Assembly (NCBI RefSeq): GCF_900177485.1
Contig: NZ_LT840186.1
Coordinates: 806,001 to 870,000 of the forward strand
DNA from: Candidatus Pelagibacter sp. HIMB1321
GTDB lineage: Bacteria; Pseudomonadota; Alphaproteobacteria; Pelagibacterales; Pelagibacteraceae
DNA length: 64,000 nt
Direction of reading: 5' to 3'
The position numbers and the translations under genes are program-made. The notes under the pieces were generated by a model. The model was not told the DNA's origin. It saw only the letters and a list, made by a program, of their open reading frames with translations, and ran no database searches. Shown in pieces: positions 11,248-43,252 of this stretch. Every line of letters begins with the position of its first letter. Within the stretch, counting starts at the first letter, position 1.

Positions 11248-12402
11248 ATGCATAAGATTTTAGAAAATAAAATTTATTCAATTTCAAACATTGTTTACAA
11301 TGAAAAACATCTTTTAGATAAAGACAATATTTTTCAAAATTTAGAGGAGAAACTCATCACAGAAGCAGTCACAACAATTGAAAATTGGGAAACATATAAA
11401 CCAACACCTTTAATTGAATTAGATAAACTTAGCTCATATCTAAATATAAATAAGATTTATTATAAAGATGAAGGATTTAGATTTGATTTAAAATCATTCA
11501 AAGCTTTAGGTGGCGCATTTGCAGTTAATAAAATTGTCAAAGAAACTAAAGCAAAAACTGTATCTACGGCTACAGCTGGAAACCATGGAAGATCTGTTGC
11601 GTGGGGTGCTCAAAGATTAGGTATTAAATGCAAGATATTTATCAGTGAGTTTGTAAGTGAAGACAGAGCAGAGGCAATGAGGAATTTAGGAGCTGATGTA
11701 ATTAGGGTTAAAGGCAATTATGATGCTTCTTTGAAAGAGTGCATAAATCAATCCAAAAAAAATCAATGGGAAATTGTTCAGGATGTTTCTTGGGAAGGAT
11801 ACAAAACTGTACCAAGATATATCATGGCTGGTTATACAATAATGATTAAAGAAATTTTTGATAAGATCAAAAATGAAAAAATTTCACATGTATTTTTACA
11901 AGCTGGTGTAGGTGGAATGGCTGCTGCAGCAATTGCAGGTTTTGCAAAATATTCAAATAATTTGCCATGCTTTATTACAGTTGAGCCAAAAGATGCTGAA
12001 TGTGTATTACAAAGTATTAAAAATAAAAAGCCCACTTCAATAAATATACAAAAAGAGTCTATTATGGGTGGTATGTCATGTGGTGATGTATCTAGTTTAG
12101 CTTGGGAAATACTCAAACATTCAACAAATTATTCAATATCAATTTCAGATGAAGCTATCGCAACAACTGTTGCACTTTTAAAACAAAAAGAATTTTCAAA
12201 TGATGAAATTATTGCTGGAGAATGTGGAGTGCCTGGAGTTATTTCTTTAATATCGGCGATTAAAGACAAAAATATTTGTGAAAAACTTAAGCTTAATTTT
12301 CAATCAAATGTTCTACTAATAGGTTGTGAGGGTCTGACTGACTTTAAAATGTACAATAAACTTTTAAAGGAAGGACAAGAAATTATAAAAAATGAACAAT
12401 AA
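11248..12402 (+). CDS. dpaL: diaminopropionate ammonia-lyase-like PLP enzyme
   Basis: 384 residues, fold type II PLP enzyme. The Schiff-base lysine is in the RFDLKSFKALGG segment, the phosphate-binding glycine-rich loop is QAGVGGMAAA, and TATAGNHGRS is the Asn loop typical of threonine dehydratase relatives. The overall pattern, especially the YKDEGFRF...KALGGAFAV start, matches diaminopropionate ammonia-lyase, which converts 2,3-diaminopropionate to pyruvate and ammonia. It overlaps the photolyase start by 11 nt. A related serine/threonine or hydroxy-amino-acid ammonia-lyase role is possible. Confidence 0.75.
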   Translation: MHKILENKIYSISNIVYNEKHLLDKDNIFQNLEEKLITEAVTTIENWETYKPTPLIELDKLSSYLNINKIYYKDEGFRFDLKSFKALGGAFAVNKIVKETKAKTVSTATAGNHGRSVAWGAQRLGIKCKIFISEFVSEDRAEAMRNLGADVIRVKGNYDASLKECINQSKKNQWEIVQDVSWEGYKTVPRYIMAGYTIMIKEIFDKIKNEKISHVFLQAGVGGMAAAAIAGFAKYSNNLPCFITVEPKDAECVLQSIKNKKPTSINIQKESIMGGMSCGDVSSLAWEILKHSTNYSISISDEAIATTVALLKQKEFSNDEIIAGECGVPGVISLISAIKDKNICEKLKLNFQSNVLLIGCEGLTDFKMYNKLLKEGQEIIKNEQ

Positions 12403-21267: not shown

Positions 21268-22449
21268 ATGACTATAGAAAGTAATTTATACAAAAAATCA
21301 ATAAAGATTTTATCTGATCTAATTGGATTTCAAACTATATCTGGTCAAGATAATAGTGAACTTATCAATTATTGTGAAAAAATTCTTAATAGTTTGAACA
21401 TAGAAACTTTTAAAGTTTTTGATGAAGACAAAAAAAGAGTAAATTTATTTGGAACTCTTAAAGCTAAAAAAACTAATGGAAAAAAACCAATAATATTATC
21501 TGGTCACACTGATGTTGTTCCAGTTTCCAAAGGTTGGAGTTCTGATCCTTTCACTGCAACAATTAAAGATAATAAATTGTATGGTAGGGGATCTTGTGAC
21601 ATGAAAGGTTTTATAGCTTGTACACTTGCTTACGCTGAAATTTTCAAACAGAGCAATTTAGATAGAGACATTCATTTTTGTTATACGTTTGATGAGGAAA
21701 CTGCATGTATTGGTGCTCCTTTATTAATTAAAGAATTAAAAAAAAGAAATATTAAAGATGGAATTTGTATTATTGGAGAACCAACTAATATGAAAATAAT
21801 TGATGGCCATAAAGGAATGAATGAATATACAATTCACTTTGGTGGACTAGCGGGTCATAGCTCCAAACCTCATAAAGGAGTTAACGCAATTGAATATGCA
21901 TCTCGATATATAAATAAACTTTTACAAATTAGACAAGAGTTAATCAAAAGAGCACCTAAAGATTGTATTTTTGATCCTCCGCATTCAACACTTTCTATAG
22001 GAGGAATATCTGGTGGTATTGCTCACAACGTAATTGCAGATAAATGTAAAGTTGAATGGGAAACAAGACCTTTCAATAAAGCAGATGCCGATTTTGTAAC
22101 AAGCGAAATGGATAAATTTGTTAATGAAGAGCTTTTACCAAATATGAAAAAAGTTTTTCCGAACTCTTTCATTAGAAAAGAAATTATTGGAGAAGTGATT
22201 GGATTTGAAAAATTAAACGAGTCTGAAGCTTGTGAATTTGTGACAAGTATTACTGGCGATAATTCAAGAGAGGTTGTTTCTTTTGGAACTGAAGCAGGTT
22301 TATTTCAAGAAATAGGAATTAGCACTGTAGTTTGCGGCCCAGGTTCAATTGAACAAGCTCATAAAATTGATGAATTTATTGAGCTTAATGAAATTAAAAA
22401 ATGTCTAAAATTTTTAGATGGGGTTAAAGAAAAATCTATATTAAATTAA
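21268..22449 (+). CDS. argE: acetylornithine deacetylase-like M20 amidohydrolase
   Basis: 393 residues, M20 di-zinc amidohydrolase. Metal-ligand motifs are LSGHTDVVP, GRGSCDMKG and the TFDEETACIGA glutamate motif; the dimerisation domain starts near GHKGMNEYTIHFGGLAGHSSKP, and GTEAGLFQE plus the C-terminal AHKIDEFI complete the ArgE pattern. ArgE hydrolyses N2-acetylornithine to ornithine. Many alphaproteobacteria use ArgJ for arginine synthesis, so this copy could instead serve a catabolic N-acetyl compound; the nearby DoeA-like gene would yield one. Overlaps the convergent aldehyde dehydrogenase by 4 nt. Confidence 0.82.
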   Translation: MTIESNLYKKSIKILSDLIGFQTISGQDNSELINYCEKILNSLNIETFKVFDEDKKRVNLFGTLKAKKTNGKKPIILSGHTDVVPVSKGWSSDPFTATIKDNKLYGRGSCDMKGFIACTLAYAEIFKQSNLDRDIHFCYTFDEETACIGAPLLIKELKKRNIKDGICIIGEPTNMKIIDGHKGMNEYTIHFGGLAGHSSKPHKGVNAIEYASRYINKLLQIRQELIKRAPKDCIFDPPHSTLSIGGISGGIAHNVIADKCKVEWETRPFNKADADFVTSEMDKFVNEELLPNMKKVFPNSFIRKEIIGEVIGFEKLNESEACEFVTSITGDNSREVVSFGTEAGLFQEIGISTVVCGPGSIEQAHKIDEFIELNEIKKCLKFLDGVKEKSILN

Positions 22450-23882
22450 TTTGTCCAGCCACCAACAGCTTTAACTTCTAAAAACTCTTCCAACCCATGT
22501 TGGCCAGCTTCACGGCCAATTCCTGAATGCTTAAATCCACCAAATGGTGCATCAACTGCTATACCTGCTCCATTTACATCTACCATTCCAGACCTTACTC
22601 TTCTTGAAACTCTTTTTACTTTTTCTGGATCTTGAGTTTGAATATAGTTTGTTAAACCATATGGAGTATCGTTTGCAATTTTAATTGCTTCTTCTTCATT
22701 TTCAAATGGTATGACTGATAACACTGGACCAAAAATTTCAGTTCTTGCAATTTCCATATTATTATTAACATCTGCAAAAACTGTTGGTTTGACAAAATAA
22801 CCTTGGTTAATTCCTTCAGGTTTTCCTGGTCCACCTGCAACTAGTTTTGCACCTTCATCAATACCTTTTTGTATTAAAGTTTGAATTTTATTATATTGAG
22901 TTTCTGAAATTACAGGTCCAATATGTTCTCCTTCTTTTGTGGGATCATCTACTTTAAATTCTTCAGCATATTTCTTTAATCTTTCAACAGCTTCATTGTA
23001 CATAGATTTTTCAACAAGCATTCTTGTTGGGGCATTACAAGATTGTCCTGAATTTCTAAAACATCTTAAAGCACCTCTTTCGATTGCCTCAGGGTCTGCA
23101 TCTTTAAAAATGATGTTAGCCCCTTTTCCTCCAAGTTCTAAACTTACTCTTTTAAAATCTTTTGCCGCATTTTGAGAGATTAAAGCACCAGCTCTTGTTG
23201 AACCTGTAAATGAAATCATATTAATGTCGGGATGGCTAGTCAGAGCATCACCTGTAGTTGCTCCATCTCCATTTACTAAATTAAATACACCAGCAGGGAA
23301 TTTTACTTCATCAATTAATTCTGCAAGTATCATTGAAGAAAGCGGAGCAAGCTCTGATGGTTTTAAAACCATAGTGCATCCAGCTGCAAGTGCTGGCATT
23401 ACTTTTAAACAAACTTGGTTCATTGGCCAATTCCAAGGTGTGATTAAAGCGCATACACCTTTTGGCTCATAAATCAGTCTTTGATTAGGAGCATGTTCAC
23501 CTAATGGTTTTTCAAATTCAAAATTTTTTAAATATTTTATAAATGATTTAATGTGTGCAGCACCAGTGCCGGCCTGTAATTTTGTTGAAAAATCTTTAGG
23601 AGCCCCCATTTCCATAGTAATTGCTTCAGCAATATCAGCCCATCTTTTTTTATAACTGTCATAAAGTTTTTCTAATAATTGAATTCTTTCCTCTTTTGAA
23701 GTGAAGGCCCAAGTATCATAAGCATTTTTTGCAGCCACAACTGCATCATTAATATCATCTTTATTAGCAAGTCCAATTACTGCACAATCTTGCTCTGTTG
23801 CAGGATTTACAACTTTAATTTCTTCTTTAGATTTAGGACTTACCCATTGTCCATTAATATAAAAATTTTTTTTATCTATCAT
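22446..23882 (-). CDS. NAD(P)-dependent aldehyde dehydrogenase
   Basis: 478 residues, full-length ALDH superfamily. Catalytic Cys lies in FRNSGQSCNAPTRM, the general-base Glu in LELGGKGANIIF, the cofactor motif is FTGSTRAG, and ITPWNWPMNQV is the conserved N-terminal segment. It oxidises an aldehyde to the carboxylate; the exact substrate cannot be read from motifs. It lies 20 bp downstream of the agmatinase-family gene on the same strand and near PotABCD, which suggests aminoaldehydes from polyamine breakdown. That substrate link is inference. Confidence 0.88.
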   Translation of the reverse strand: MIDKKNFYINGQWVSPKSKEEIKVVNPATEQDCAVIGLANKDDINDAVVAAKNAYDTWAFTSKEERIQLLEKLYDSYKKRWADIAEAITMEMGAPKDFSTKLQAGTGAAHIKSFIKYLKNFEFEKPLGEHAPNQRLIYEPKGVCALITPWNWPMNQVCLKVMPALAAGCTMVLKPSELAPLSSMILAELIDEVKFPAGVFNLVNGDGATTGDALTSHPDINMISFTGSTRAGALISQNAAKDFKRVSLELGGKGANIIFKDADPEAIERGALRCFRNSGQSCNAPTRMLVEKSMYNEAVERLKKYAEEFKVDDPTKEGEHIGPVISETQYNKIQTLIQKGIDEGAKLVAGGPGKPEGINQGYFVKPTVFADVNNNMEIARTEIFGPVLSVIPFENEEEAIKIANDTPYGLTNYIQTQDPEKVKRVSRRVRSGMVDVNGAGIAVDAPFGGFKHSGIGREAGQHGLEEFLEVKAVGGWTN

Positions 23883-23902: not shown

Positions 23903-24862
23903 TTATTTTTTTGCAAACAAATTTGTTAATTCATAAACAATAGTTGCAGCTGCAAGAGATGTAACTTCAGCATGATCATAAGCAGGAGATACTTCAACTA
24001 CATCTGCTGAAATCAAATTCATTCCAGATAGTCCTCTTATAACATTTACCATTTCTCTAGTTGTCATTCCTGCAATCTCAGGTGTACCAGTGCCTGGTGC
24101 AAAAGCAGGATCTAATACATCAATATCAATTGATAAATATAAAGGATTATCTCCAACTCTATCTCTTATTCTTTGTGCAATTTTATCTGTTCCTTGAGTT
24201 TGAAATTCATCACAGTGAATTATTTTAAATCCAAAACTTTCATCATTTTTAATATCATTTCTACTATATAGTGGTCCTCTTATTCCAACGTGCATTGAAG
24301 CATCATCTAAAAATAGATTTTCTTCTCTAGCTCTTCTAAATGGAGTCCCATGTGTATATGGAGCACCAAAATAAGTATCCCATGTATCTAAATGTGCATC
24401 AAAATGAACTAATGCGACAGGTCCATTATTAATTCTATTGATTGCTTTTAATAAAGGAAAAGCAATTGTGTGATCACCACCTAAACTTATAATTCCTCCA
24501 ACTTTTTGTAATAATTCATAAGCGCCCTCTTCTACCTGTTTAATTGCTTCATCAATATTGAAAGGATTGCAAGTAATATCCCCTGCATCAGCAACTTGTT
24601 GCACCTTAAAAGGTTCTACATCATAACTTGGATGATAATTTGTTCTTAAATGACGTGATGCCTGACGAATACTTTGAGGACCAAATCTTGCACCTGGTCT
24701 ATAACTTGTACCTGCATCAAAAGGAATTCCAACAATAGCTACATCACAGCTTTCAACATCTCTCAATTCAGGAAGTCTTGCAAATGTAGAGGGACCTGCA
24801 AATCGTGGGACTTTTGTTCCGCTTACAGGTTGAATTGGATTTTTATTTTTTTCTTTTTTCAT
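23903..24862 (-). CDS. speB: agmatinase-family ureohydrolase
   Basis: 319 residues from the ATG at 24862; a GTG five codons upstream is also possible. The bimetal Mn site of the arginase/agmatinase family is complete: LGGDHTIAFP, VHFDAHLDTW and SIDIDVLDPAFAPGTGTPE. FDAGTSYRPGARFGPQSIR at the N-terminus is typical of agmatinase and guanidinobutyrase rather than arginase. It would release urea from agmatine or a related guanidino compound. Together with the downstream aldehyde dehydrogenase and nearby PotABCD it supports polyamine catabolism. Guanidinobutyrase or guanidinopropionase activity is a real alternative. Confidence 0.85.
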   Translation of the reverse strand: MKKEKNKNPIQPVSGTKVPRFAGPSTFARLPELRDVESCDVAIVGIPFDAGTSYRPGARFGPQSIRQASRHLRTNYHPSYDVEPFKVQQVADAGDITCNPFNIDEAIKQVEEGAYELLQKVGGIISLGGDHTIAFPLLKAINRINNGPVALVHFDAHLDTWDTYFGAPYTHGTPFRRAREENLFLDDASMHVGIRGPLYSRNDIKNDESFGFKIIHCDEFQTQGTDKIAQRIRDRVGDNPLYLSIDIDVLDPAFAPGTGTPEIAGMTTREMVNVIRGLSGMNLISADVVEVSPAYDHAEVTSLAAATIVYELTNLFAKK

Positions 24863-25637: not shown

Positions 25638-26281
25638 TTGAACAAATAAAACCTTCAAGATCAGAAAAAGTAATTTTTATATTTATTATATTGTTAGCAT
25701 TATTTTCAATTACATCTTTTTTTTTGATTAAAGATAAATGTCTATTTGTTAAAAATCATGATCCAAATGAACTGAAATTTGAAAATCCTCAAAATATTGC
25801 AATCTTAAATGTTGAATGTGGTAACGTCATAATTGAACTTTATCCTGAAACATCTCCAATTGCTGTTAAAAGATTTAAAACTCTAATAAGAACAAAAGCA
25901 TATGACAATGTTGCATTCCATAGAGTGATCAAGGACAAACTAGTTCAAGCAGGAGATTTAGAGTTTGGTAAAAAAGATAATTTAGATTATGGAAAAATAG
26001 GTACAGGAAAATCAGGACTAGGGACTTTAAAATCTGAAATAGATAATCCATTTGATTATAAAAAAGGTAGTGTTGGATTTTCAAGGACATCTAAATTTGA
26101 TACCGAAGATAGCCAATTTTTTATAATTCTAGATGATGAACCTTTATATGAAGGGGAGTATACACCTTTGGGCAAAGTTCTTTACGGACTAGATGCACTT
26201 AAAAAAATCAAATATTTAGATAAATCTGTTTATGTATTAAGGCCTGATTTTATCAATACTTTTAGAATGCTAATTAATTAA
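25634..26281 (+). CDS. membrane-anchored cyclophilin-type peptidyl-prolyl isomerase
   Basis: 215 residues: one N-terminal membrane segment (about residues 14-32) acting as anchor or uncleaved signal, then a bacterial-type cyclophilin domain. Core motifs are YDNVAFHRVIKDKLVQAGD, KKGSVGFSRTSKFDTEDSQFFIIL and YTPLGKVLYGLDAL; F-H-R and the Q-F-F triad of the active site are present. It would catalyse proline isomerisation in periplasmic proteins. Its start overlaps the metallopeptidase stop by 4 nt, and its 3' end overlaps the convergent fad gene by 8 nt. Confidence 0.87.
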   Translation: MIEQIKPSRSEKVIFIFIILLALFSITSFFLIKDKCLFVKNHDPNELKFENPQNIAILNVECGNVIIELYPETSPIAVKRFKTLIRTKAYDNVAFHRVIKDKLVQAGDLEFGKKDNLDYGKIGTGKSGLGTLKSEIDNPFDYKKGSVGFSRTSKFDTEDSQFFIILDDEPLYEGEYTPLGKVLYGLDALKKIKYLDKSVYVLRPDFINTFRMLIN

Positions 26282-28496
26282 CCAAAGGCTTACCAGTAGT
26301 TAAAGTATGTTTAATTCTATCTTGTGTTTTTTTAGTTTCAATTAATTTCATAAAAGCATCTAATTCTAATTTAAAAAAGGCATCTTCAGATATTTCCTTA
26401 TCAATTGTCGTATCTCCTCCACTTAATACAAACGCAAGTTCTTTAGCAACTTCCATTCCATGATCTAAAATAATTTTATCATTATAAAGTTTATCTAAAA
26501 TTTTATACATTTTTCCCCTCACACTCTCTCCAGGAAGTTTAAAAACAAGTTCACTTGGTGCTTTAAAGTCTTTATTGTTGTTTAAAATTTCTTTTGAAAC
26601 TTCTAATAAACTATTTCTATTCATTATTTGTTTATCATCTGGCATCAAATATTTCATAGGTACAGCTTCAACTGGTGATGTTGCAGTTTTTCCATATCCA
26701 ATGATGTCAAAAACTTTTAGTGGAGCAAAATTTGGATCTTTTTGAGCATCCTCTGTATTCATCCATCTAGCTAACATTTCTTTACATCCGCCACCTGCAG
26801 GAATTAAACCAACAATTGTTTCGACAAGCCCAATAACAATATTTGTATGTGAGGCAACAAAATTACTTTGAACTAAAACTTCAAAACCTCCCCCTAAAGT
26901 CAATCCTGATGGGGCAGATACTACTGGATATTTTGAATACTTTAACGTTTTGCAGGTTTCTTGAAAATATTTAATAAATTTTTCTATAGATTTAAAATCA
27001 CCTTTGTCAGCAAAATCCATTGTGTAAGTTAAATTAACACCAGCAGAAAATTGCATACTTTCGTTAATTATAATTAATGGTTTATCGGTTGCTTTCTTTA
27101 ATGCATCCATTGAATCGTAATCAAGTGCATTAGCTTTGGTGGTGAACTCAACAATATTATAATCTTTGAATCTATAAATCTGCGCTGAACTATTACCATC
27201 AAGGCTAATAGCTTTTCTTTTTACTTTTCCTAAAGTTTCAATTTCGGTATACTTTTGACGCTCACCATAGAAATCTTCATTCTTTGTTTTAGATAAGTTT
27301 TCTAAAAATTCATTTCCTTGATATTCATCAATTTTATCAAAAAAGTTTTTCACTCCTATCTCTTCCAGCATTTCAAATGGACCTTTTGCCCAGTTAAAAC
27401 CTAATCTCATTGCCTCATCAATATCATTAAATTTTTTTGTAATTTCTGGAACTAAAGATGAAGCGTACTTAATAATTTTTGAAATTACTGACCAAGCATA
27501 TTCACCGTATTTATCATCTCTTGAAATCAAGTTTTTAAGATCAACTTTGTCTGATTTAATATCTATTTTCTTACTTGGTGAATATTCACCTGTTTCAAGA
27601 TTAAGTGCTTCTAATACTTTGCTACCTTCAGATTTATTTATTCTATAAAATCCTCCCTTGCCTTTTCTGCCAGTATAGCCAGTATCAATTAATTTTTTTA
27701 CTAATGGAATTTCTTTGGCAACTATTTGAAATTTATCCTCTTTAGGAAGTTCTTTAATAAAACTTTTTAAAACATCAGCCATTAAATCTATTCCAATTAA
27801 ATCATAAAGGCCAAAAACACCCGTTTTTGGTATGCCCATTGGTCTTCCAAAAATAGCATCCGCTTCTTCAACAGATAGTTTCATTTTAAATGCTTCTGTC
27901 ATTGCAATTTGCATTGCATAAACACCTACACGATTGCCTAAAAAACCAGGTGTATCATTACAAACAATTGCACCTTTACCAAGTTCTACTTCACAAAATT
28001 TTTTAAGATCATTAATTTTATTTAGATCATTGTTTTCGTTTTTAACAATTTCTAACAAACCCATGTATCGAACAGGATTAAAAAAATGTGTTATACAAAA
28101 GTCTTTTTTTTCATTCTCAGATAAATGTTCTGATAATACTTTAATTGGAATTGAAGATGTATTTGAAGAAACAATCGCTCCATCTTTTCTACTTTTAAAA
28201 ATTTTTTCATAAATTTGATGTTTGATATCTATTCTTTCTACAACGGCTTCTACAATCCAATCTGCTTGTTTAACAACATCAAAATCATCTGAGATATTTC
28301 CTACTTTGATATTATTAATTCTAGTTTTATCTATAAGTAATGGCGGTCTTGATTTAAAAATTCTATCTCTTGCATTAGTTGAAATTTCTGTTGTTAAATC
28401 TAAAAGTGTAACTGGAATATTTGCGTTACATAAGTGTGCAGCAATTCCACTTCCCATTGTACCTGAACCAATGACAACGACTTTCTTAATTTCCAT
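26274..28496 (-). CDS. fused 3-hydroxyacyl-CoA dehydrogenase / enoyl-CoA hydratase
   Basis: 740 residues. The order is inverted relative to FadB/FadJ: an N-terminal NAD-binding dehydrogenase (VVVIGSGTMGSGIAAHL; FFNPVRYMGLLEIV; NDTPGFLGNRVG), its C-terminal helical domain, then an enoyl-CoA hydratase/crotonase domain from about residue 450 with the oxyanion and catalytic segments GLTLGGGFEVLVQS and GLVETIVGLIPAGGG. It would carry out two consecutive beta-oxidation steps. It lies 17 bp downstream of potC on the same strand, so it may be read with the Pot operon. The chain length handled is unknown. Confidence 0.88.
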   Translation of the reverse strand: MEIKKVVVIGSGTMGSGIAAHLCNANIPVTLLDLTTEISTNARDRIFKSRPPLLIDKTRINNIKVGNISDDFDVVKQADWIVEAVVERIDIKHQIYEKIFKSRKDGAIVSSNTSSIPIKVLSEHLSENEKKDFCITHFFNPVRYMGLLEIVKNENNDLNKINDLKKFCEVELGKGAIVCNDTPGFLGNRVGVYAMQIAMTEAFKMKLSVEEADAIFGRPMGIPKTGVFGLYDLIGIDLMADVLKSFIKELPKEDKFQIVAKEIPLVKKLIDTGYTGRKGKGGFYRINKSEGSKVLEALNLETGEYSPSKKIDIKSDKVDLKNLISRDDKYGEYAWSVISKIIKYASSLVPEITKKFNDIDEAMRLGFNWAKGPFEMLEEIGVKNFFDKIDEYQGNEFLENLSKTKNEDFYGERQKYTEIETLGKVKRKAISLDGNSSAQIYRFKDYNIVEFTTKANALDYDSMDALKKATDKPLIIINESMQFSAGVNLTYTMDFADKGDFKSIEKFIKYFQETCKTLKYSKYPVVSAPSGLTLGGGFEVLVQSNFVASHTNIVIGLVETIVGLIPAGGGCKEMLARWMNTEDAQKDPNFAPLKVFDIIGYGKTATSPVEAVPMKYLMPDDKQIMNRNSLLEVSKEILNNNKDFKAPSELVFKLPGESVRGKMYKILDKLYNDKIILDHGMEVAKELAFVLSGGDTTIDKEISEDAFFKLELDAFMKLIETKKTQDRIKHTLTTGKPLVN

Positions 28497-28512: not shown

Positions 28513-29367
28513 TTATCGGTTAATTCCTCTAAGTCTTTCAGATCTTCTTCTTAAAAGCTCAGCTGTAACTAAAATTAATGTTGAAAGAATAATCAAACAG
28601 GTAGCAACAGCTAAAATTGTTGGACTTAACTGTTCTCTTAAACCTGTCCACATTTGAATTGGTATTGTAGTATTTTCTAAGCCTGCCAAAAATAAAACAA
28701 CCACAACTTCATCAAATGATGTAACGAATGCAAATAATCCCCCAGAAATTACTCCTGGTAAAATTAAAGGCAATGTAATTTTCATAAATGTATTTACTGG
28801 ATTACTGCCAAGACTAGCAGCTGCTCGTGTAACACTATGATCGAAACCAGATAATGTTGCAGTAACTGTAATTACCACAAATGGCGTTCCTAAAATCATA
28901 TGTGCTAGAACAATCCCAGCATGAGTTGCAGCTAAACCAGCTTTTGCCATAAAGAAAAATATTGCAACTCCAGAAATAATTAATGGAACAATCATTGGAG
29001 AAATTAAAACTGCCATGATCAATCCTTTGTAAGGCATATGTCTACTGCTTAAACCTAGAGCAGCAACTGTTCCTAGTATTACTGATCCAATAGTTGCAAA
29101 TATTGCAATTATAAAACTATTTTTAGCAGCTAAACCCCATGGATTCTTTGTTCCATAGATCATATCTTTATACCATCTAAGTGAAAAAGCATCTGGGTCT
29201 AAACTTTTCATTCCATCAGAAAAACTTAAAAATTCTTCTGCATTAAAAGATAATGGAAAAATTACAAACAGTGGTGCAATTAAAAAGAAAAATACTGATG
29301 CACAGATTGTCAAATATACATAGTGCCAAATTCTATAATGAGGTTCTGTATATTTTGGTAATGCCAT
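28513..29367 (-). CDS. potC: PotC-type ABC permease
   Basis: 284 residues, six membrane segments, binding-protein-dependent permease of the polyamine/opine class. The EAA loop reads TRAAASLGSNPVNTFMKITLP, the usual PotC form. It is 3 bp downstream of potB and forms the second half of the channel. Basic C-terminus RRRSERLRG. Substrate is inferred from PotD-like binding protein and from agmatinase and aldehyde dehydrogenase genes nearby; other cationic or cyclic amine solutes remain possible. Confidence 0.85.
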   Translation of the reverse strand: MALPKYTEPHYRIWHYVYLTICASVFFFLIAPLFVIFPLSFNAEEFLSFSDGMKSLDPDAFSLRWYKDMIYGTKNPWGLAAKNSFIIAIFATIGSVILGTVAALGLSSRHMPYKGLIMAVLISPMIVPLIISGVAIFFFMAKAGLAATHAGIVLAHMILGTPFVVITVTATLSGFDHSVTRAAASLGSNPVNTFMKITLPLILPGVISGGLFAFVTSFDEVVVVLFLAGLENTTIPIQMWTGLREQLSPTILAVATCLIILSTLILVTAELLRRRSERLRGINR

Positions 29368-29369
29368 AA

Positions 29370-30623
29370 TTATCCTAATTTAATATTATCTATTCCAACT
29401 AATTTGTTATAGAGCCAATAAATTGCTAATACACCTGCAAGTAACATTAATCCCATTGCAGATGCAAAACTCCAATCAAGTGTGCTTTTCATATGAAACG
29501 CGATTTGGTTACTAATCAATGTTCCAGAAGCTCCACCAACTAAGGCTGGAGTGATGTAATATCCAATTGCTAAAATAAAAACTAATAAACTTCCAGCACC
29601 TATACCTGGAATTGTTAATGGAAAATAAACTTTCCAGAAGGCAACAAAAGGTGTTCCACCCAATGATTTTCCCGCTCTCATTAATGAAGGTGATATTGTT
29701 TTCATCACACTGTAAAGCGGAAGGACCATGAAAGGTAATAAAATTTGTGTCATCGCAACATAAGTTCCAATCTTATTGTACATCATCTCAGGTCTGTTAT
29801 CGTCAGTTACAAGTCCAATCCATACAAAGAAATCATTAACTACACCTTGTTGCTGAAGTAATATCATCCAGCTAGCGGTCCTGACTAATAGAGATGTCCA
29901 AAATGGAAGTAAAACACAGATCATTAGCAAATTACTATATTTCATTGGTAATGTTGCTAGTAAATGAGCAATTGGATAAGCCATTAAAAAACAAAATATT
30001 GTAACAAAAAAAGCTACCTCTAAAGTTCTAAGCCAAAGCACTCTGTGAACTCTCCTATCTTCTGAAACGCTAACAATATCTCCATTCTCATTTGTATACA
30101 TATCCATACCTTTTAGATATTTTTGACCAGTATAGGCATTAGATCTTGCTTTAATTGCTCTCCAGTATTCAACATCAGCCCACCGTTTATGAACAGACAT
30201 GATTTGCTCTTTATAATTTCCTTCTTCAAATTTTCTCATTGATCGACGAAGCTTTTTAATAATACTTTTAAATCCGTTCTTTGTATAATTAAGCTGTGTA
30301 GAAAGTTTACCCTCACGTTTTTCTTTAATTAACAACTCCATATCAAAGTAAAATGCTTCAAAAACTTCTTCAGAAGGTAGATCTTGACCGTCCCAATTTT
30401 CCATAGCTTTAAATGTTTTTGGGAGCATATTTGTTACTTCTCTATCATCAACACTTCTGACAAGCATGTCTCCGATAGGAAATACGTAAGTGATTATTAA
30501 AAATAAAAGTAATGGTGCAACTAATAAAAAAGCTTTTAACTTATTTTTCCTTTCAGATTTTTTTAAGCTTACCTCTAAAGGTATTCCATCAGTCGTAAGA
30601 ATTTGTTGTGTTTCAGAGCTCAT
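29370..30623 (-). CDS. potB: PotB-type ABC permease with long periplasmic insertion
   Basis: 417 residues, about 120-130 longer than E. coli PotB. A first membrane segment (about residues 29-50) is followed by a roughly 145-residue hydrophilic, probably periplasmic region rich in charged helices (about 52-197), then the five remaining membrane segments and the EAA loop MRAGKSLGGTPFVAFWKVYFP. The start codon lies only 7 nt after the arm of a 10-bp hairpin that follows potD and no Shine-Dalgarno is visible, so expression should be lower than that of potD. Insertions of this kind occur in some alphaproteobacterial Pot homologues. Confidence 0.85.
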   Translation of the reverse strand: MSSETQQILTTDGIPLEVSLKKSERKNKLKAFLLVAPLLLFLIITYVFPIGDMLVRSVDDREVTNMLPKTFKAMENWDGQDLPSEEVFEAFYFDMELLIKEKREGKLSTQLNYTKNGFKSIIKKLRRSMRKFEEGNYKEQIMSVHKRWADVEYWRAIKARSNAYTGQKYLKGMDMYTNENGDIVSVSEDRRVHRVLWLRTLEVAFFVTIFCFLMAYPIAHLLATLPMKYSNLLMICVLLPFWTSLLVRTASWMILLQQQGVVNDFFVWIGLVTDDNRPEMMYNKIGTYVAMTQILLPFMVLPLYSVMKTISPSLMRAGKSLGGTPFVAFWKVYFPLTIPGIGAGSLLVFILAIGYYITPALVGGASGTLISNQIAFHMKSTLDWSFASAMGLMLLAGVLAIYWLYNKLVGIDNIKLG

Positions 30624-30692: not shown

Positions 30693-31814
30693 TTATAAAC
30701 CTGCTTTCATAGCTTCCCATTTTTCACCAAGCTCCGTTCCATTGTCGGCCCAGTAAAGAGGGTCTACTAAAAAGTAGTTTTTAGTGTTTTGTGGCGCTGT
30801 TGGCATTTGTGGTACCATGTTAGTCTTACCATCTTTATACCAAGGCTCTCCTTTTTCCATCACCGCAATTGATGATTTTCTCCAAGGAGCGTATGCAATG
30901 TATTTAGCAGATCCAGCTAACATTTCAGTGTTAGTCATCATCGCTAAAGCTTTTTTAGCATTTCCATTTGCATCGTTTGGTCCACCTTTAACTTGTACGA
31001 AATACTCGTAGTCAAGACCTTGAGCATCCCAAACTTGTTTAATAGGAGCACCTTCGCCTACTTCTGCATTAAAGAATCTACCGTTCCAACCAGTTGCCAT
31101 TACAACTTCACCTGAAACAAGTAATTCTGGTGGTTGAGCACCTGCTGACCAAAATACACATCCGCCTTTTGGATCTGTACATAATTCTTTGATCTTGTTC
31201 ATCGCTCTTTCAACACCTTTTTCTGTTTCTAACAATTCGTAGATGTTAGCTCCACCTTTTCCAGGTTTTACACCATCAGCAGCTAAAGCAATCTCTAAGT
31301 TTGTTAGAGCGCTTTTGTAGATAGCTCTTTTTCCTGGGAACTTTTTAGTGTTAAAGAAATCTTTGATAGTTTTTGGAGTGCCTTTAACGTTGTTCACGTT
31401 GTAAGCATAGTTCCAAGAATATAAAATATTTCCTACAGCACATTTACTTGGCATAGAAGTAAAGAAATCTTCTGATGCTGGAGTTCCATCTGGTGCAGGT
31501 GGGAAGTCTTTGTCAAAATCAAATTCTACAAATAATCCTTCATCACATCCGTTGATAGTATCCATAGCAAATACGTCAATGATATCCCACGTAATTTTGC
31601 CAGCTTCTTTTTGTGCTTTAATTTCAGATAATCCACCTGAGTAGTCTACCCAGTTGATATCAATTCCAAGTGCTTTCGCAGTTGGGTCACCATAACCTAA
31701 CTTTTGAGACTCAGTGTACGCACCACCCCAAGACACTACAGTAACTGCAAATGCCGAAGTAGCCATAGAGACAGCAAAAGAAATAGCTAGTAACAATTTA
31801 CTTAGTTTTTTCAT
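30693..31814 (-). CDS. potD: PotD-type periplasmic solute-binding protein
   Basis: 373 residues with a clear signal peptide (MKKLSKLLLAISFAV..., cleavage near SAFA at about residue 23). The mature start TVVSWGGAYTESQ is the PotD/PotF and opine-binding class pattern. An unusually strong Shine-Dalgarno (GGAGG) lies just upstream, with its own candidate promoter between potA and potD and a terminator directly downstream. The family binds polyamines and some related cations; SAR11-type PotABCD is known to handle several polyamines, but the ligand of this copy is not proven. Confidence 0.85.
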   Translation of the reverse strand: MKKLSKLLLAISFAVSMATSAFAVTVVSWGGAYTESQKLGYGDPTAKALGIDINWVDYSGGLSEIKAQKEAGKITWDIIDVFAMDTINGCDEGLFVEFDFDKDFPPAPDGTPASEDFFTSMPSKCAVGNILYSWNYAYNVNNVKGTPKTIKDFFNTKKFPGKRAIYKSALTNLEIALAADGVKPGKGGANIYELLETEKGVERAMNKIKELCTDPKGGCVFWSAGAQPPELLVSGEVVMATGWNGRFFNAEVGEGAPIKQVWDAQGLDYEYFVQVKGGPNDANGNAKKALAMMTNTEMLAGSAKYIAYAPWRKSSIAVMEKGEPWYKDGKTNMVPQMPTAPQNTKNYFLVDPLYWADNGTELGEKWEAMKAGL

Positions 31815-31916: not shown

Positions 31917-33002
31917 TTATTTTGGATCTAAAGCTCTAGCGTCTTCACTATTCCAACCAATTTTAATTTCTTTACCGAGTTTAATGTCTAAGTTGGATGA
32001 ACTATTTGGTACTTTTAAAATAAATTGATTATTTTGAAGTAGATTGATTCTTATTCTTGTGTGATCTCCATGATAAATAACTTCTTCTATTTTACCTGAA
32101 TGTATATTATCCATATCATTACTTGGATTTATTAATGCTCTTTCTGGTCTTAATGAAACAGTAGTTTTTTCACCCTTAGATTTAACAGTAATTGGATTAG
32201 CTAAAATTTCTGCATTTGCTAATTTAACTTTACATTTTTTTCCTGAAATTTCTGATACTTCACCTGCAAAAGTATTATTTTCTCCAATAAACTCTGCCAC
32301 AAATGAGTTAACTGGTTTTTCGTATAATTCGTCTGGACTTGAAAGTTGTTGTACTTTTCCATCATTAAAAACTGCAATCCTATTTGACATTGTTAAAGCT
32401 TCACTTTGATCGTGAGTAACATAGACAACTGTTACACCAATACTTTCATGAATATGTTTAATTTCATATTGCATGCTCTCTCTTAAATTTTTATCTAATG
32501 CACCTAATGGCTCATCCATTAAAACTAGTTGAGGATCAAATACTAAAGATCTTGCTACTGCCACCCTTTGTTGTTGACCTCCTGATAACTGACCCGGCAT
32601 TCTAGATGCAAATCCTTGAAGCGATACCATTGATAATGCTTTATCAATTTTTTTATCTGCTTCATCTTTTGGTATTTTTCTAACTCTTAATGGAAATGCT
32701 AAATTTTCATAAACTGTCATATGAGGGAATAAAGCATAGTTTTGGAATACCATTCCAATCCCTCTTTTGTGTGGAGGGATACTTGAAATCGCTTTTCCAT
32801 CTAAATAAATTTCACCATGGGTTGGGGTTTCAAATCCTGCCAACATCATCAAGCAAGTAGTCTTACCAGAACCAGATGGTCCTAACATTGTTACAAACTC
32901 ACCTTCTTCGATGTCTAACTGAAGATCTTTTACAACAAGTACTTTACCGTCGTAGCTTTTATCGACTTTATCGAATTTTACGAATTCAGGATTTTTTGCC
33001 AT
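31917..33002 (-). CDS. potA: PotA-type ABC ATPase
   Basis: 361 residues: ATPase domain plus C-terminal TOBE domain. All motifs are canonical: Walker A GPSGSGKTT, Q-loop VFQNYALFPHMTV, signature LSGGQQQRVAVARSL, Walker B LVLMDEPLGALD and switch His in YVTHDQSEAL. It energises import by the PotB/PotC channel, and a homodimer should have two working sites, in contrast to GlpS/GlpT. It is the first of the four pot genes and starts 54 bp after the DoeA-like gene. Confidence 0.9.
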   Translation of the reverse strand: MAKNPEFVKFDKVDKSYDGKVLVVKDLQLDIEEGEFVTMLGPSGSGKTTCLMMLAGFETPTHGEIYLDGKAISSIPPHKRGIGMVFQNYALFPHMTVYENLAFPLRVRKIPKDEADKKIDKALSMVSLQGFASRMPGQLSGGQQQRVAVARSLVFDPQLVLMDEPLGALDKNLRESMQYEIKHIHESIGVTVVYVTHDQSEALTMSNRIAVFNDGKVQQLSSPDELYEKPVNSFVAEFIGENNTFAGEVSEISGKKCKVKLANAEILANPITVKSKGEKTTVSLRPERALINPSNDMDNIHSGKIEEVIYHGDHTRIRINLLQNNQFILKVPNSSSNLDIKLGKEIKIGWNSEDARALDPK

Positions 33003-33055
33003 AAAGCATGTATGTTAAACATTTGTTAGATAAGAATTCAACATGTAAAATTGAT

Positions 33056-34222
33056 TTATTTTATAAATAAATCTTTTGAAAGATTACAAAACAATTCTGC
33101 ACCATTTTCAGTCACTCTAATAGATTCTGAGGCTTCAACACCCCAGTTACCAAACTGCATTACTGCAATCATATGGAATGTTACATTAGGCTTTAGCTCT
33201 GTCATATCCCCTTTAGAAATATTTAAAGTATGCTCACCCCAATCAGGTGGGTAGCCAATTCCTATTGAATAACCAGTTCTTGAGGTCTTCTCAATTCCAT
33301 ATTTGTCTAAAATTTTCCAAAAAGCTTGAGCAACATCATCAGCAGTATTTCCTGCTTTTACCGCATCAATACCCGATTGAAGCGCTTCATTGGTTTTTTT
33401 CATTGTATCAATTTTCAATTGATCTGATTTTCCAAGTAAAATTGTTCGAGCCATTGGGCAATGATATTTTTTATGTGAGCCTGAAATCTCAATAATGGTT
33501 GCTTCTCCTTCAACAAATTTGTCATCTGTCCATGTTAAATGAGATGCTGATGTACCTTTTCCAGTTGGTAGCATTGGAACTATAGATGCATAATCTCCTC
33601 CAAATTCAGGTGTTCCCTTAATTAATGAGGAATAAATTTCTGAAACAGCATCACACTGTCTTACGCCCGGACTAATAACCTCAAATGCTTTTTTCATTCC
33701 ATTTTGAACTATCTTAGAGGCAGCTTTCATCAAATCTATTTCAGTATCTGATTTAACAACTCTGACCCAATTTACTAATCGTTCACAATCTGAAATTTTT
33801 GCATTAGGCAATCCTGTTTTTATTTTCTCATAACAATAGGCAGTAAAATAATGACTATCCATTTCAAGACCTATTGAAAGTTTATCCCACTTTTTTTCTT
33901 TAATTAAATCAACTAATGCATCGTAAGGATGTAATGGCCAAGTATGAATATATTTTTCATCATACTTAATAATATTTTCATCTTTTAAATAAGTTTTAAT
34001 ATATGCACCACCTGCATCTTGATTTCTTACAAAACATAATGGCTCATCTGCATTTACATGTACAATTACACATTGAGCATAATAAAAAGACCAAGCATCA
34101 TAGCCTGTTAAATAATTCATGTTAGATGGATCTTGAGAAATTAATAATTCAATTCCTTTTTTCTGCATTGAGGCTTGAACTTTTTTTAGCCTATCTTGAT
34201 ATTCATTTTTTGAAAAAATCAT
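33056..34222 (-). CDS. doeA: M24-fold hydrolase of the ectoine hydrolase DoeA/EutD type
   Basis: 388 residues with the two-domain creatinase/aminopeptidase P layout. The five metal ligands of M24 peptidases are mostly replaced: the D-x-G motif reads EISG, the DxTR motif reads CPMART, and the metal His/Glu positions read GYSIG and TFHMI. A metal-free M24 hydrolase with a YPPDWGEHT segment fits ectoine hydrolase, which opens ectoine to N-acetyl-diaminobutyrate. The adjacent EutA-like gene supports this. Creatinase or another C-N hydrolase is the alternative. The downstream transporter is Pot-type rather than a known ectoine importer. Confidence 0.68.
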   Translation of the reverse strand: MIFSKNEYQDRLKKVQASMQKKGIELLISQDPSNMNYLTGYDAWSFYYAQCVIVHVNADEPLCFVRNQDAGGAYIKTYLKDENIIKYDEKYIHTWPLHPYDALVDLIKEKKWDKLSIGLEMDSHYFTAYCYEKIKTGLPNAKISDCERLVNWVRVVKSDTEIDLMKAASKIVQNGMKKAFEVISPGVRQCDAVSEIYSSLIKGTPEFGGDYASIVPMLPTGKGTSASHLTWTDDKFVEGEATIIEISGSHKKYHCPMARTILLGKSDQLKIDTMKKTNEALQSGIDAVKAGNTADDVAQAFWKILDKYGIEKTSRTGYSIGIGYPPDWGEHTLNISKGDMTELKPNVTFHMIAVMQFGNWGVEASESIRVTENGAELFCNLSKDLFIK

Positions 34223-34225
34223 AAA

Positions 34226-34969
34226 TTAATAATTAAATAATTTTCCATACCCTACAACATTAATATTAGAGTTAATTTGATTTAGACTATCCCAGATTAA
34301 AGCTTGATTACTTGATACAACGAATTTTCCAAGTTTATTTTCAAGGTCGTTTATTAAAGATAGCACAGGTAGAGCTGTACAAGAAACAAATAACGCATCA
34401 CTATCATTTAAGTTAATTCTACTTAACACATCAAATAGATATTTATCATCGACTTTTCCTATATCTAAATCAGAAGGTATATCAAAATAAGATAATTCAT
34501 TAATTTCAAAATTTTCATTTTTAAAATACTCAACAACAGAATTGTTAATTTCATTAGTGTATGGTGTGAAAATAGAAATTTTATTAATATTTAATTTTTT
34601 TAGAGCTTTGATGGCTGCTGTAATTGGAGTGGTTACTTTAGTATTTGGTTTTGCAGCATTTACTTTTTCAAATATTGAATTGTATCCTGCAGCAATAGTT
34701 CCAGATGTACAACCATAAGCAACACAATCTAATTTCTGATCTGGCAATATATCTTTAGTGACATTGGTAATATCATCTGCCATTTTTTTCAAAGTTTCAT
34801 TAGTTAATGGATTGTAGCAATGAATTCGATTGCAATATAAGTCTATATCTTTTCCATTAATCACATTATTAAAATCTTTTTCGATTCTAAAATCACTAGC
34901 AAGAGTGATTAATCCAATACGTGGGTTAGATTTAGCGATATATTTAGGATCTATTTTGGAAAGTTTCAT
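34226..34969 (-). CDS. eutA: EutA-like Asp/Glu racemase superfamily protein
   Basis: 247 residues with two pseudo-symmetric halves, each carrying a cysteine expected in the Asp/Glu racemase / maleate isomerase / arylmalonate decarboxylase fold: VAYGCTSGTIAAG in the first half and FVSCTALPVLSLI in the second. The start PRIGLITLASD and the NP-L-T segment recall EutA of ectoine utilisation clusters. It is 3 bp upstream of the DoeA-like gene. In known clusters EutA has been proposed to act on a hydroxyectoine intermediate. Name is by resemblance and context. Confidence 0.6.
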   Translation of the reverse strand: MKLSKIDPKYIAKSNPRIGLITLASDFRIEKDFNNVINGKDIDLYCNRIHCYNPLTNETLKKMADDITNVTKDILPDQKLDCVAYGCTSGTIAAGYNSIFEKVNAAKPNTKVTTPITAAIKALKKLNINKISIFTPYTNEINNSVVEYFKNENFEINELSYFDIPSDLDIGKVDDKYLFDVLSRINLNDSDALFVSCTALPVLSLINDLENKLGKFVVSSNQALIWDSLNQINSNINVVGYGKLFNY

Positions 34970-42340: not shown

Positions 42341-43252
42341 TTAATTTATAAAAAAAGATCCTCTTATTCTAAGAAGTTCTCTGCTTAAATTTTTATTCTC
42401 TTTAAAAGGTTTTCTTCCATGTAACCAAAAATAGTTATTTGCAACAATTGCTGAACCAACTGGTAATTTTGTTATAACCTTATTTTTACTGCCCTCTAGT
42501 GCATCAGATAATTTTTGTAAAAATTGACCTTGTTTCATATTTTTTGGTTCAGGAAATTGATCAATATAGGAGATTTGAGGTAGACCTTTGCTATCTTCAA
42601 AAAAAACTGGGTGTTCAACTTTATAATCAACATTTTTGCTTTTAGGTGAAGACCAGGTAAAATTTTCTCTTCCTATTGGATCATTATATAATTCTTTACA
42701 ATATTCCCAGTCATCTAAATGAAGCATTGCACTTTCTCCACCTTCAACATTTTTTTCTTCAATTTTAGTCATCATCAACCAATCTGTAATTTCTTTAACA
42801 TAAGTTCCATCAGTGTGAAGATCCATGTTTGTGTAAGCTTTTCTCAAATATGAATCACTTTTATCTTCATGCTTAACATGAAAACGTGCATAGAATTTAC
42901 CAGCCATAGAATCATAATTTGGTGTCCCAATCAAATGTGTTACTGCTGTTGATAATTTTACCAAAAAAATATCATTAGTTTCATTGGTGACTGTTTCTGG
43001 TCCAATAATAAAACAACCTGTTTTTCTATCTCTCAAAATATCATTTAGATATTTGCTAAGTTCATTATTGGTTAAGTCATCCAAATATTTTGCAACAGTA
43101 AATCTTGTAAAGGGTTTGTATTCAATTGCAGTTAGATCAAAATTGTTAAATAAACTCACTAAATCACTAACAATCTTATCTTTAATTTTGATATCTATAA
43201 TTCGTTTAGAAGAACTGTTTTCAGCAATTAACAAACCATCAATTTTTTTCAT
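42341..43252 (-). CDS. glaH: glutarate 2-hydroxylase GlaH (CsiD family)
   Basis: 303 residues, a non-haem Fe(II)/2-oxoglutarate dioxygenase. From memory it follows E. coli CsiD/GlaH along its whole length: YDSMAGKFYARF, SDSYLR, DLHTDGTYVKEITD, the LLHLDDWE-like segment, YIDQFPEPK, WLHGRKPF and RELLRIRG. Iron ligands are H146, D148 and H278; an Arg near 291-295 should bind 2-oxoglutarate. GlaH converts glutarate to L-2-hydroxyglutarate, part of lysine/cadaverine catabolism. No L-2-hydroxyglutarate oxidase is seen in this window. It lies 40 bp upstream of the proC-like gene and 9 bp after azlD. Confidence 0.88.
   Translation of the reverse strand: MKKIDGLLIAENSSSKRIIDIKIKDKIVSDLVSLFNNFDLTAIEYKPFTRFTVAKYLDDLTNNELSKYLNDILRDRKTGCFIIGPETVTNETNDIFLVKLSTAVTHLIGTPNYDSMAGKFYARFHVKHEDKSDSYLRKAYTNMDLHTDGTYVKEITDWLMMTKIEEKNVEGGESAMLHLDDWEYCKELYNDPIGRENFTWSSPKSKNVDYKVEHPVFFEDSKGLPQISYIDQFPEPKNMKQGQFLQKLSDALEGSKNKVITKLPVGSAIVANNYFWLHGRKPFKENKNLSRELLRIRGSFFIN

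Follow-up and report, generated by a model that had tools for sequence, protein, structure and literature searches.

The 64,000-nucleotide stretch of the Candidatus Pelagibacter sp. HIMB1321 genome analyzed here (contig NZ_LT840186.1, positions 806,001 to 870,000; the window) carries a run of genes for a EutA-like protein, an M24-fold protein that we call M24A, and the ATP-binding cassette (ABC) importer PotA-PotD-PotB-PotC. We propose, at a probability of about one half, that in Pelagibacteraceae these genes constitute a single import-and-hydrolysis block for a compound with the skeleton of gamma-aminobutyric acid (GABA), in which M24A is a metal-free hydrolase of a cyclic amidine or amide. 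The open reading frames (ORFs), and the motifs EISG, CPMART, GYSIG and TFHMI quoted for M24A in an earlier sequence-only reading of the window, were found as described. By ORF inspection, the genes of the block and a FadB-like gene that follows them lie throughout on the minus strand with short gaps:

34226-34969, minus strand: EutA-like two-cysteine racemase/isomerase-fold protein, first gene of the block, 247 amino acids (TIGR02990, 205.7 bits, E 7.5e-61)
33056-34222, minus strand: M24A, predicted M24-fold, metal-free DoeA-like hydrolase, 388 amino acids (TIGR02993; Pfam M24 and Creatinase_N)
31917-33002, minus strand: PotA-like ATPase of the ABC importer (TIGR01187, 383.2 bits, cut-off 355.6)
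30693-31814, minus strand: PotD-like solute-binding protein, GABA/opine type (phmmer match to PDB 8jv1, E 3.9e-180; Foldseek, 75% identity)
29370-30623, minus strand: PotB-like permease (ORF and family scan)
28513-29367, minus strand: PotC-like permease (ORF and family scan)
26274-28496, minus strand: FadB-like 3-hydroxyacyl-CoA dehydrogenase/crotonase, 16 bp past PotC (NF052272, 493 bits, cut-off 999)

We infer a substrate common to the importer and the enzymes, and the reaction and order of steps would be as follows. The ABC importer, which carries a polyamine-type label, would take up a small zwitterion with the GABA (omega-amino acid) skeleton. M24A would hydrolyze a cyclic amidine or amide form of the imported compound through Glu245 and without a metal, and the two-cysteine EutA-like enzyme would invert or isomerize a stereocentre, either in the substrate or in the product. 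The remaining steps would fall to an M20 deacylase, ArgE-like in the genus of the window and DoeB2-like in the other SAR11 family, and to general aminotransferases and aldehyde dehydrogenases. The likeliest, if unproven, single class of substrate is ectoine or 5-hydroxyectoine, since the GABA skeleton N-CH2-CH2-CH-COO is contained in the ectoine ring.

M24A, EutA and the ectoine enzymes

M24A is homologous over its full length to DoeA/EutD, at 40-47% (TIGR02993, the Halomonas protein of PDB 6twk, and the Sinorhizobium meliloti protein). The sequence-only reading had called the M24 protein DoeA-like and its neighbor EutA-like, and both assignments stand. Among solved proteins the closest to M24A in sequence is Halomonas elongata DoeA (6twk, E 1e-104, 354 bits); of the other solved M24 proteins, prolidases reached at most 62 bits and creatinases 37 bits. 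Against the DoeA model TIGR02993, M24A scored 474.5 bits (E 2.8e-142), below the equivalog cut-off of 613, and against the DoeA_2 model 209 bits (cut-off 575). Three of four DoeAs from the canonical clade scored 675-720 bits on TIGR02993, and one, at 608, was slightly below 613. At the positions that we take to be the metal ligands of M24 enzymes, alignment with the three metallo-M24 enzymes of the genome showed D replaced by E, D by P, H by Y and E by I in M24A, with the last Glu retained. M24A is thus not a metallopeptidase. S. meliloti DoeA is without exactly those ligands that M24A has lost, which bears out the earlier comparison with a metal-independent ectoine hydrolase. Glu245 of M24A aligns with Glu255 of Halomonas DoeA, reportedly identified as the catalytic residue by Mais et al. 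in 2020, and Glu245 and its flanking residues showed no variation across 16 aligned relatives.

A tree built from 44 M24 proteins grouped those of SAR11 and one of a further genome (G241) in a clade with support of 99/98, and S. meliloti DoeA fell within a separate 16-row clade (100/100). When Halomonas DoeA was added and long outgroups were removed (41 rows), the SAR11 and G241 clade was recovered at 100/97 and the DoeA clade, now of 17 rows with Halomonas and Sinorhizobium inside, at 100/100; the joining of the two as sisters (79/51) was neither supported nor rejected. There were 22 alignment columns with one residue in at least 15 of the 17 DoeAs and another in at least 11 of the 13 members of the SAR11 clade. 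Systematic changes from DoeA to M24A include Phe253 to Ile243, two positions ahead of the Glu, and Trp367 to Gln356, where one of the 13 members, G241 according to the alignment, retains Trp; the changed residues would presumably line the pocket. M24A is separated by sequence from creatinases and peptidases (62 versus 354 bits), yet it stands outside the clade of proven ectoine hydrolases. The identification as canonical DoeA was rejected because of this placement and the score below the cut-off. DoeA, too, is often beside EutA and an importer; M24A differs from it in score, in its own clade, in the 22 systematic differences and in having no DoeB partner. On sequence grounds, M24A is DoeA-like, yet a separate subfamily with altered residues beside the catalytic Glu.

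The 1.32 Mb single-contig host genome has a second DoeA-like gene, M24B, at C1:318232-319386 (L036 10190-11407; 43% to M24A; TIGR02993, 414 bits). It is followed by a gamma-glutamyltransferase-like gene and by a divergent racemase-like gene, both named by eye, and M24B was found in two of 81 SAR11 genomes, those of the host and G030.

The EutA-like protein scored under the TIGR02990 cut-off of 318 bits. EutA-like matches occurred in 68 of the 81 SAR11 genomes and none reached this cut-off; the EutA within a EutA-DoeA-DoeB cluster (L107) was also under it, at 158 bits. The window protein is 34% identical to S. meliloti EutA, and two canonical EutAs were no closer, at 34-35%. It shares with EutA both Cys motifs (GCTSG and SCTA), which are presumably catalytic, and differs in its score and in having no EutB or EutC alongside.

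Conservation of the block and the binding protein

Conservation of gene order was assessed in the closest PotD loci, the best 80 of 588 relatives in a scan of genome contigs, which are from Pelagibacteraceae or Pelagibacter according to record titles. Two of these loci were too short to judge M24A and EutA, and three more were too short for EutA. M24A was upstream of PotA in 76 of 78 judgeable loci and the EutA-like gene upstream of M24A in 73 of 75, so that EutA-M24-PotADBC was operon-like in 73 of 75. Gaps measured from match to match were 6-15 bp between EutA and M24A (70 of 73 loci) and 40-60 bp between M24A and PotA (74 of 76). A FadB-like gene was present in 50 of the 80 loci, within the flanks covered. 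Near full-length M24A of at least 58% identity was found in 67 of the 81 SAR11 genomes (37 of 49 in the genus of the window and 30 of 32 in family f2), and one further genome had an 82-residue fragment. The EutA-M24A pair is more than chance and is strongly conserved. The sequence-only reading had placed this pair beside a transporter; the adjacency holds, with the change that pair and transporter belong to one conserved block.

The window PotD matched no NCBIfam family, polyamine-binding families included. The first phmmer match was PDB 8jv1, followed by GABA/opine-type receptors. Foldseek with the PotD model also placed 8jv1 first, an entry titled 'Structure of the SAR11 PotD in complex with GABA' that comes from another strain and is 75% identical to the window protein. 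Next were MotA/Atu4243 opine and GABA receptors at about 27% identity, and spermidine PotDs were at 14-19%; the VIA Z values were 25.9 for 8jv1, 19-22 for MotA/Atu4243-type receptors and 16-18 for spermidine PotDs. The entries 8jv2-8jv4 are identical in sequence to 8jv1, and the window PotD reaches 94% identity to named Pelagibacteraceae proteins. Its closest relatives are not polyamine PotD/PotF proteins: the GABA/opine receptors are nearer in both sequence and fold. The polyamine label of the SAR11 Pot importer is thus doubtful: the gene set is Pot-like, as had been read from the letters, and the binding protein is of the GABA/opine type instead. A literature search for PDB 8jv1-8jv4 and for SAR11, GABA and PotD found no relevant paper.

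Partner genes and related clusters

The DoeB model had no match in the 81 SAR11 genomes, host included, many of which are incomplete. In the host genome the EutC model had no match and the EutB model weak matches only (best 67 bits, cut-off 413), in keeping with the partners first noted as missing nearby. The best match there to the diaminobutyrate aminotransferase model TIGR00709 reached 155 of 402 bits, a model that DoeD itself may not fit. Three genes of the window were considered for later steps:

21268-22449, plus strand: ArgE-family deacetylase, candidate N-acyl-diaminobutyrate deacetylase (TIGR01892, 344.6 bits, cut-off 297.7)
22446-23882, minus strand: aldehyde dehydrogenase, possibly for a later step (Pfam Aldedh)
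23903-24841, minus strand: SpeB, agmatinase/ureohydrolase family, possibly linked (TIGR01230, 237.7 bits, cut-off 174.3)

The ArgE-like gene, which exceeds the acetylornithine-deacetylase cut-off, lies 10.6 kb away, where the sequence-only reading had put it at some 11 kb and suggested that it might act on N-acetyl-diaminobutyrate. This suggestion gains support from two clusters and from ArgJ. In L106 an ArgE-family gene occupies the usual slot of DoeB, in the order DoeA-ArgE-AsnC-aldehyde dehydrogenase-aminotransferase, and in L124 such a gene adjoins DoeA, with EutA and Pot nearby. ArgJ is present elsewhere in the host genome, above its cut-off, so arginine synthesis could run its acetyl cycle without the ArgE-like enzyme. 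In a further locus (L114) the run is SpeB, a related M24 gene and ArgE. The window aldehyde dehydrogenase reached no NCBIfam equivalog cut-off among the best 25 matches listed.

In family f2, a DoeB2-like M20 enzyme (NF038260, 319 of 550 bits) directly adjoins M24A in 26 of 32 genomes; EutA lies between the two in two genomes, and the M20 gene is elsewhere in two. It resembles DoeB2 as an M20 enzyme beside the DoeA-like gene and differs from it in its score. A close homologue was found in none of the 49 genomes of the window's genus, with weak partial matches in three; this genus has the ArgE-family enzyme nearby instead.

A class-wide sample of 289 genomes was searched for DoeA-like (at least 270 bits) and PotD-like (at least 200 bits) genes at most 15 kb apart. 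DoeA-like genes were present in 33 non-SAR11 alphaproteobacterial genomes, 27 of which also had a PotD-like gene. In six of the 27 the two were within this distance, against 0.24 expected for uniform placement in 4 Mb; since G162 and G277 are of one genus, the six represent five genera. Five of their DoeAs belong to the canonical clade and the sixth is that of G241. DoeB also accompanies the canonical DoeA and Pot-type importer in G361 and G248. The PotDs of G162, G277, G234 and G248 form one clade (100/100), and those of SAR11 and G241 another (96/90), in which the G241 branch is long and its placement unsure. The PotD of G361 groups with PotDs that are not beside DoeA, so PotD clade and DoeA are not strictly linked.

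In four genomes of three families (L122, L123, L124 and L109), canonical DoeA genes are tied to Pot-type importers that form a clade; these may be ectoine importers of an undescribed type.

The neighbors of M24A vary outside the genus of the window. In SAR11 genera g2 (L047, L048, L053) and g3 (L049, L051), M24A clusters with a GbcA-like Rieske oxygenase and an M20 amidohydrolase. The g3 clusters additionally have a diaminopropionate-ammonia-lyase-like gene and EutA, with the set M20-EutA-M24A, and a lyase-like gene of this kind occurs together with EutA-DoeA-DoeB in L107. For this set of Rieske, M20 and M24A genes in the other SAR11 family, homarine catabolism was considered as a possible route. 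In G241 the neighbors are sarcosine oxidase subunits, a proline-racemase-family protein and an M19 dipeptidase. In genus g4 an arginine:glycine-amidinotransferase-like gene directly adjoins M24A. Such a gene is present in 67 of the 81 SAR11 genomes, and the host copy (C1:176862-179143) adjoins a third, more distant M24 gene; because the amidinotransferase is usually beside another M24 gene, its place next to M24A in g4 may be incidental.

Some further genes were observed. The window encodes at 11248-12402 a pyridoxal-phosphate-dependent protein of the diaminopropionate ammonia-lyase type (NF006058, 406 bits, cut-off 276), which shares 32% identity with the lyase-like gene seen in the g3 cluster. 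A plasmid of Rhizobium sp. NLR16a (L071) has an operon-like set of ABC transporter, EutA-like racemase, M20 enzyme and distant M24 protein (38% to M24A), perhaps part of a wider family of amide-catabolic modules. The glutarate dioxygenase GlaH (42341-43252; 452.5 bits, cut-off 333) is flanked on both sides by Liv-type ABC transporter sets, named by eye.

For alphaproteobacterial clusters, the available portion of a 2026 survey of ectoine catabolism (PMC13188858) gives tripartite ATP-independent periplasmic (Ueh) and ABC (Ehu) transporters. The only mention of SAR11 in that portion is in the title of a cited reference, and the main text uses none of the words polyamine, spermidine, putrescine and potABCD. 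The survey also terms EutE-less EutD clusters of Thermodesulfobacteriota, Bacillota and haloarchaea putative ectoine clusters; these resemble the SAR11 block in having DoeA-like genes without DoeB and differ in their gene sets. No paper on a DoeA-like SAR11 gene was found by title or abstract, in a body of literature that omits many journals.

Weighing the explanations

Several observations weigh against a common block for import and hydrolysis. In two loci (L216 and L218) the transporter is present but M24A and EutA are missing, despite 6-10 kb of upstream sequence, and L057 has EutA-M24A with no Pot behind, so the coupling of enzymes and importer is not absolute. M24A has no Pot neighbors in the family f2 genomes examined, and the majority of PotD relatives in the class have no DoeA alongside. 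As for GABA itself, it contains no ring that could be opened. Confidence in the predicted PotD structure is low (mean pLDDT 60.6), although the match to 8jv1 holds by sequence too. The Rieske, sarcosine oxidase and amidinotransferase neighbors are outside the known ectoine route, so that an N-methyl, guanidino or N-acyl substrate is possible. Finally, SAR11 cultures import five polyamines, putrescine, cadaverine and spermidine among them; in the part of that study available to us, its authors credit PotABCD, yet call the assignment unvalidated.

Plain catabolism of ectoine or 5-hydroxyectoine by a reduced route would be a special case nested within the proposed explanation, and it is possible, if somewhat unlikely. 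M24A would open the ring to N-acetyl-diaminobutyrate, an ArgE-like or DoeB2-like M20 enzyme would remove the acetate, and a general aminotransferase and aldehyde dehydrogenase would lead to aspartate, with EutA serving the 5-hydroxyl. DoeA as the nearest family of M24A argues for this, as do the ArgE-family genes of L106 and L124 with an ArgE freed by ArgJ, the canonical DoeA clusters with a Pot-type importer and in G361 and G248 also DoeB, and the lyase-like gene in the clusters of L049, L051 and L107. Two SAR11 papers, in the parts accessible, list ectoine transport for marine SAR11 from annotation. The position of M24A outside the canonical clade, with Trp367 to Gln356 and Phe253 to Ile243, points the other way, as do the failure to find DoeB in the 81 SAR11 genomes or EutC and canonical EutB in the host genome, and the sub-cut-off scores for diaminobutyrate aminotransferase and DoeB2. 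To our knowledge there is no ectoine-bound SAR11 protein, which also weighs against the plain ectoine route.

It is unlikely that M24A acts instead on an N-methylated, guanidino or N-acyl (pseudopeptide) compound, with the EutA-like protein as the general racemase of that route. The GbcA-type Rieske and M20 genes, the amidinotransferase of g4, the neighbors in G241, the SpeB beside a related M24 gene in L114 and the rhizobial set of L071 would fit such a substrate, but the neighbors vary between lineages and the amidinotransferase position may be incidental.

A polyamine system as annotated is improbable; in it, M24A and the EutA-like protein would handle a polyamine-derived product or be unrelated passengers. 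Although PotA matches TIGR01187, SpeB and the aldehyde dehydrogenase are within 10 kb, and the uptake of putrescine, cadaverine, spermidine and others is reported for cultures, the PotABCD assignment is unvalidated in its authors' own terms and PotD is nearer to GABA/opine receptors. The near-absolute linkage of the importer to M24A and EutA in the closest loci speaks against passengers. An ordinary Xaa-Pro peptidase or creatinase was rejected, and M24A is very improbable as either: it shares the fold and Pfam families of these enzymes, but its metal ligands are gone and its scores are 62 bits for prolidases and 37 for creatinases against 354 for DoeA.

With these alternatives weighed, the earlier observation of the gene pair and transporter is confirmed and its interpretation partly supported; the idea that the route may be reduced or rewired, or may serve another cyclic amide, agrees with the import-and-hydrolysis block preferred here. 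SAR11 PotABCD has been described among the most abundant SAR11 proteins, and PotD, in the accessible part of one report, as the most highly expressed SAR11 transporter for nitrogen-related compounds. We tentatively suggest that SAR11 PotABCD may not be mainly a polyamine importer and may feed an unrecognized route for a GABA-type cyclic solute, through a specialized metal-free DoeA-like subfamily across Pelagibacteraceae; the solute may be an ectoine relative or another osmolyte. Few cells in the ocean are as abundant as those of SAR11. If the cargo of PotD is an ectoine-like or GABA-type solute, the 'polyamine uptake' reading in marine metaproteomes would have to be revised, and it would become possible to test a route for a major dissolved-nitrogen compound.

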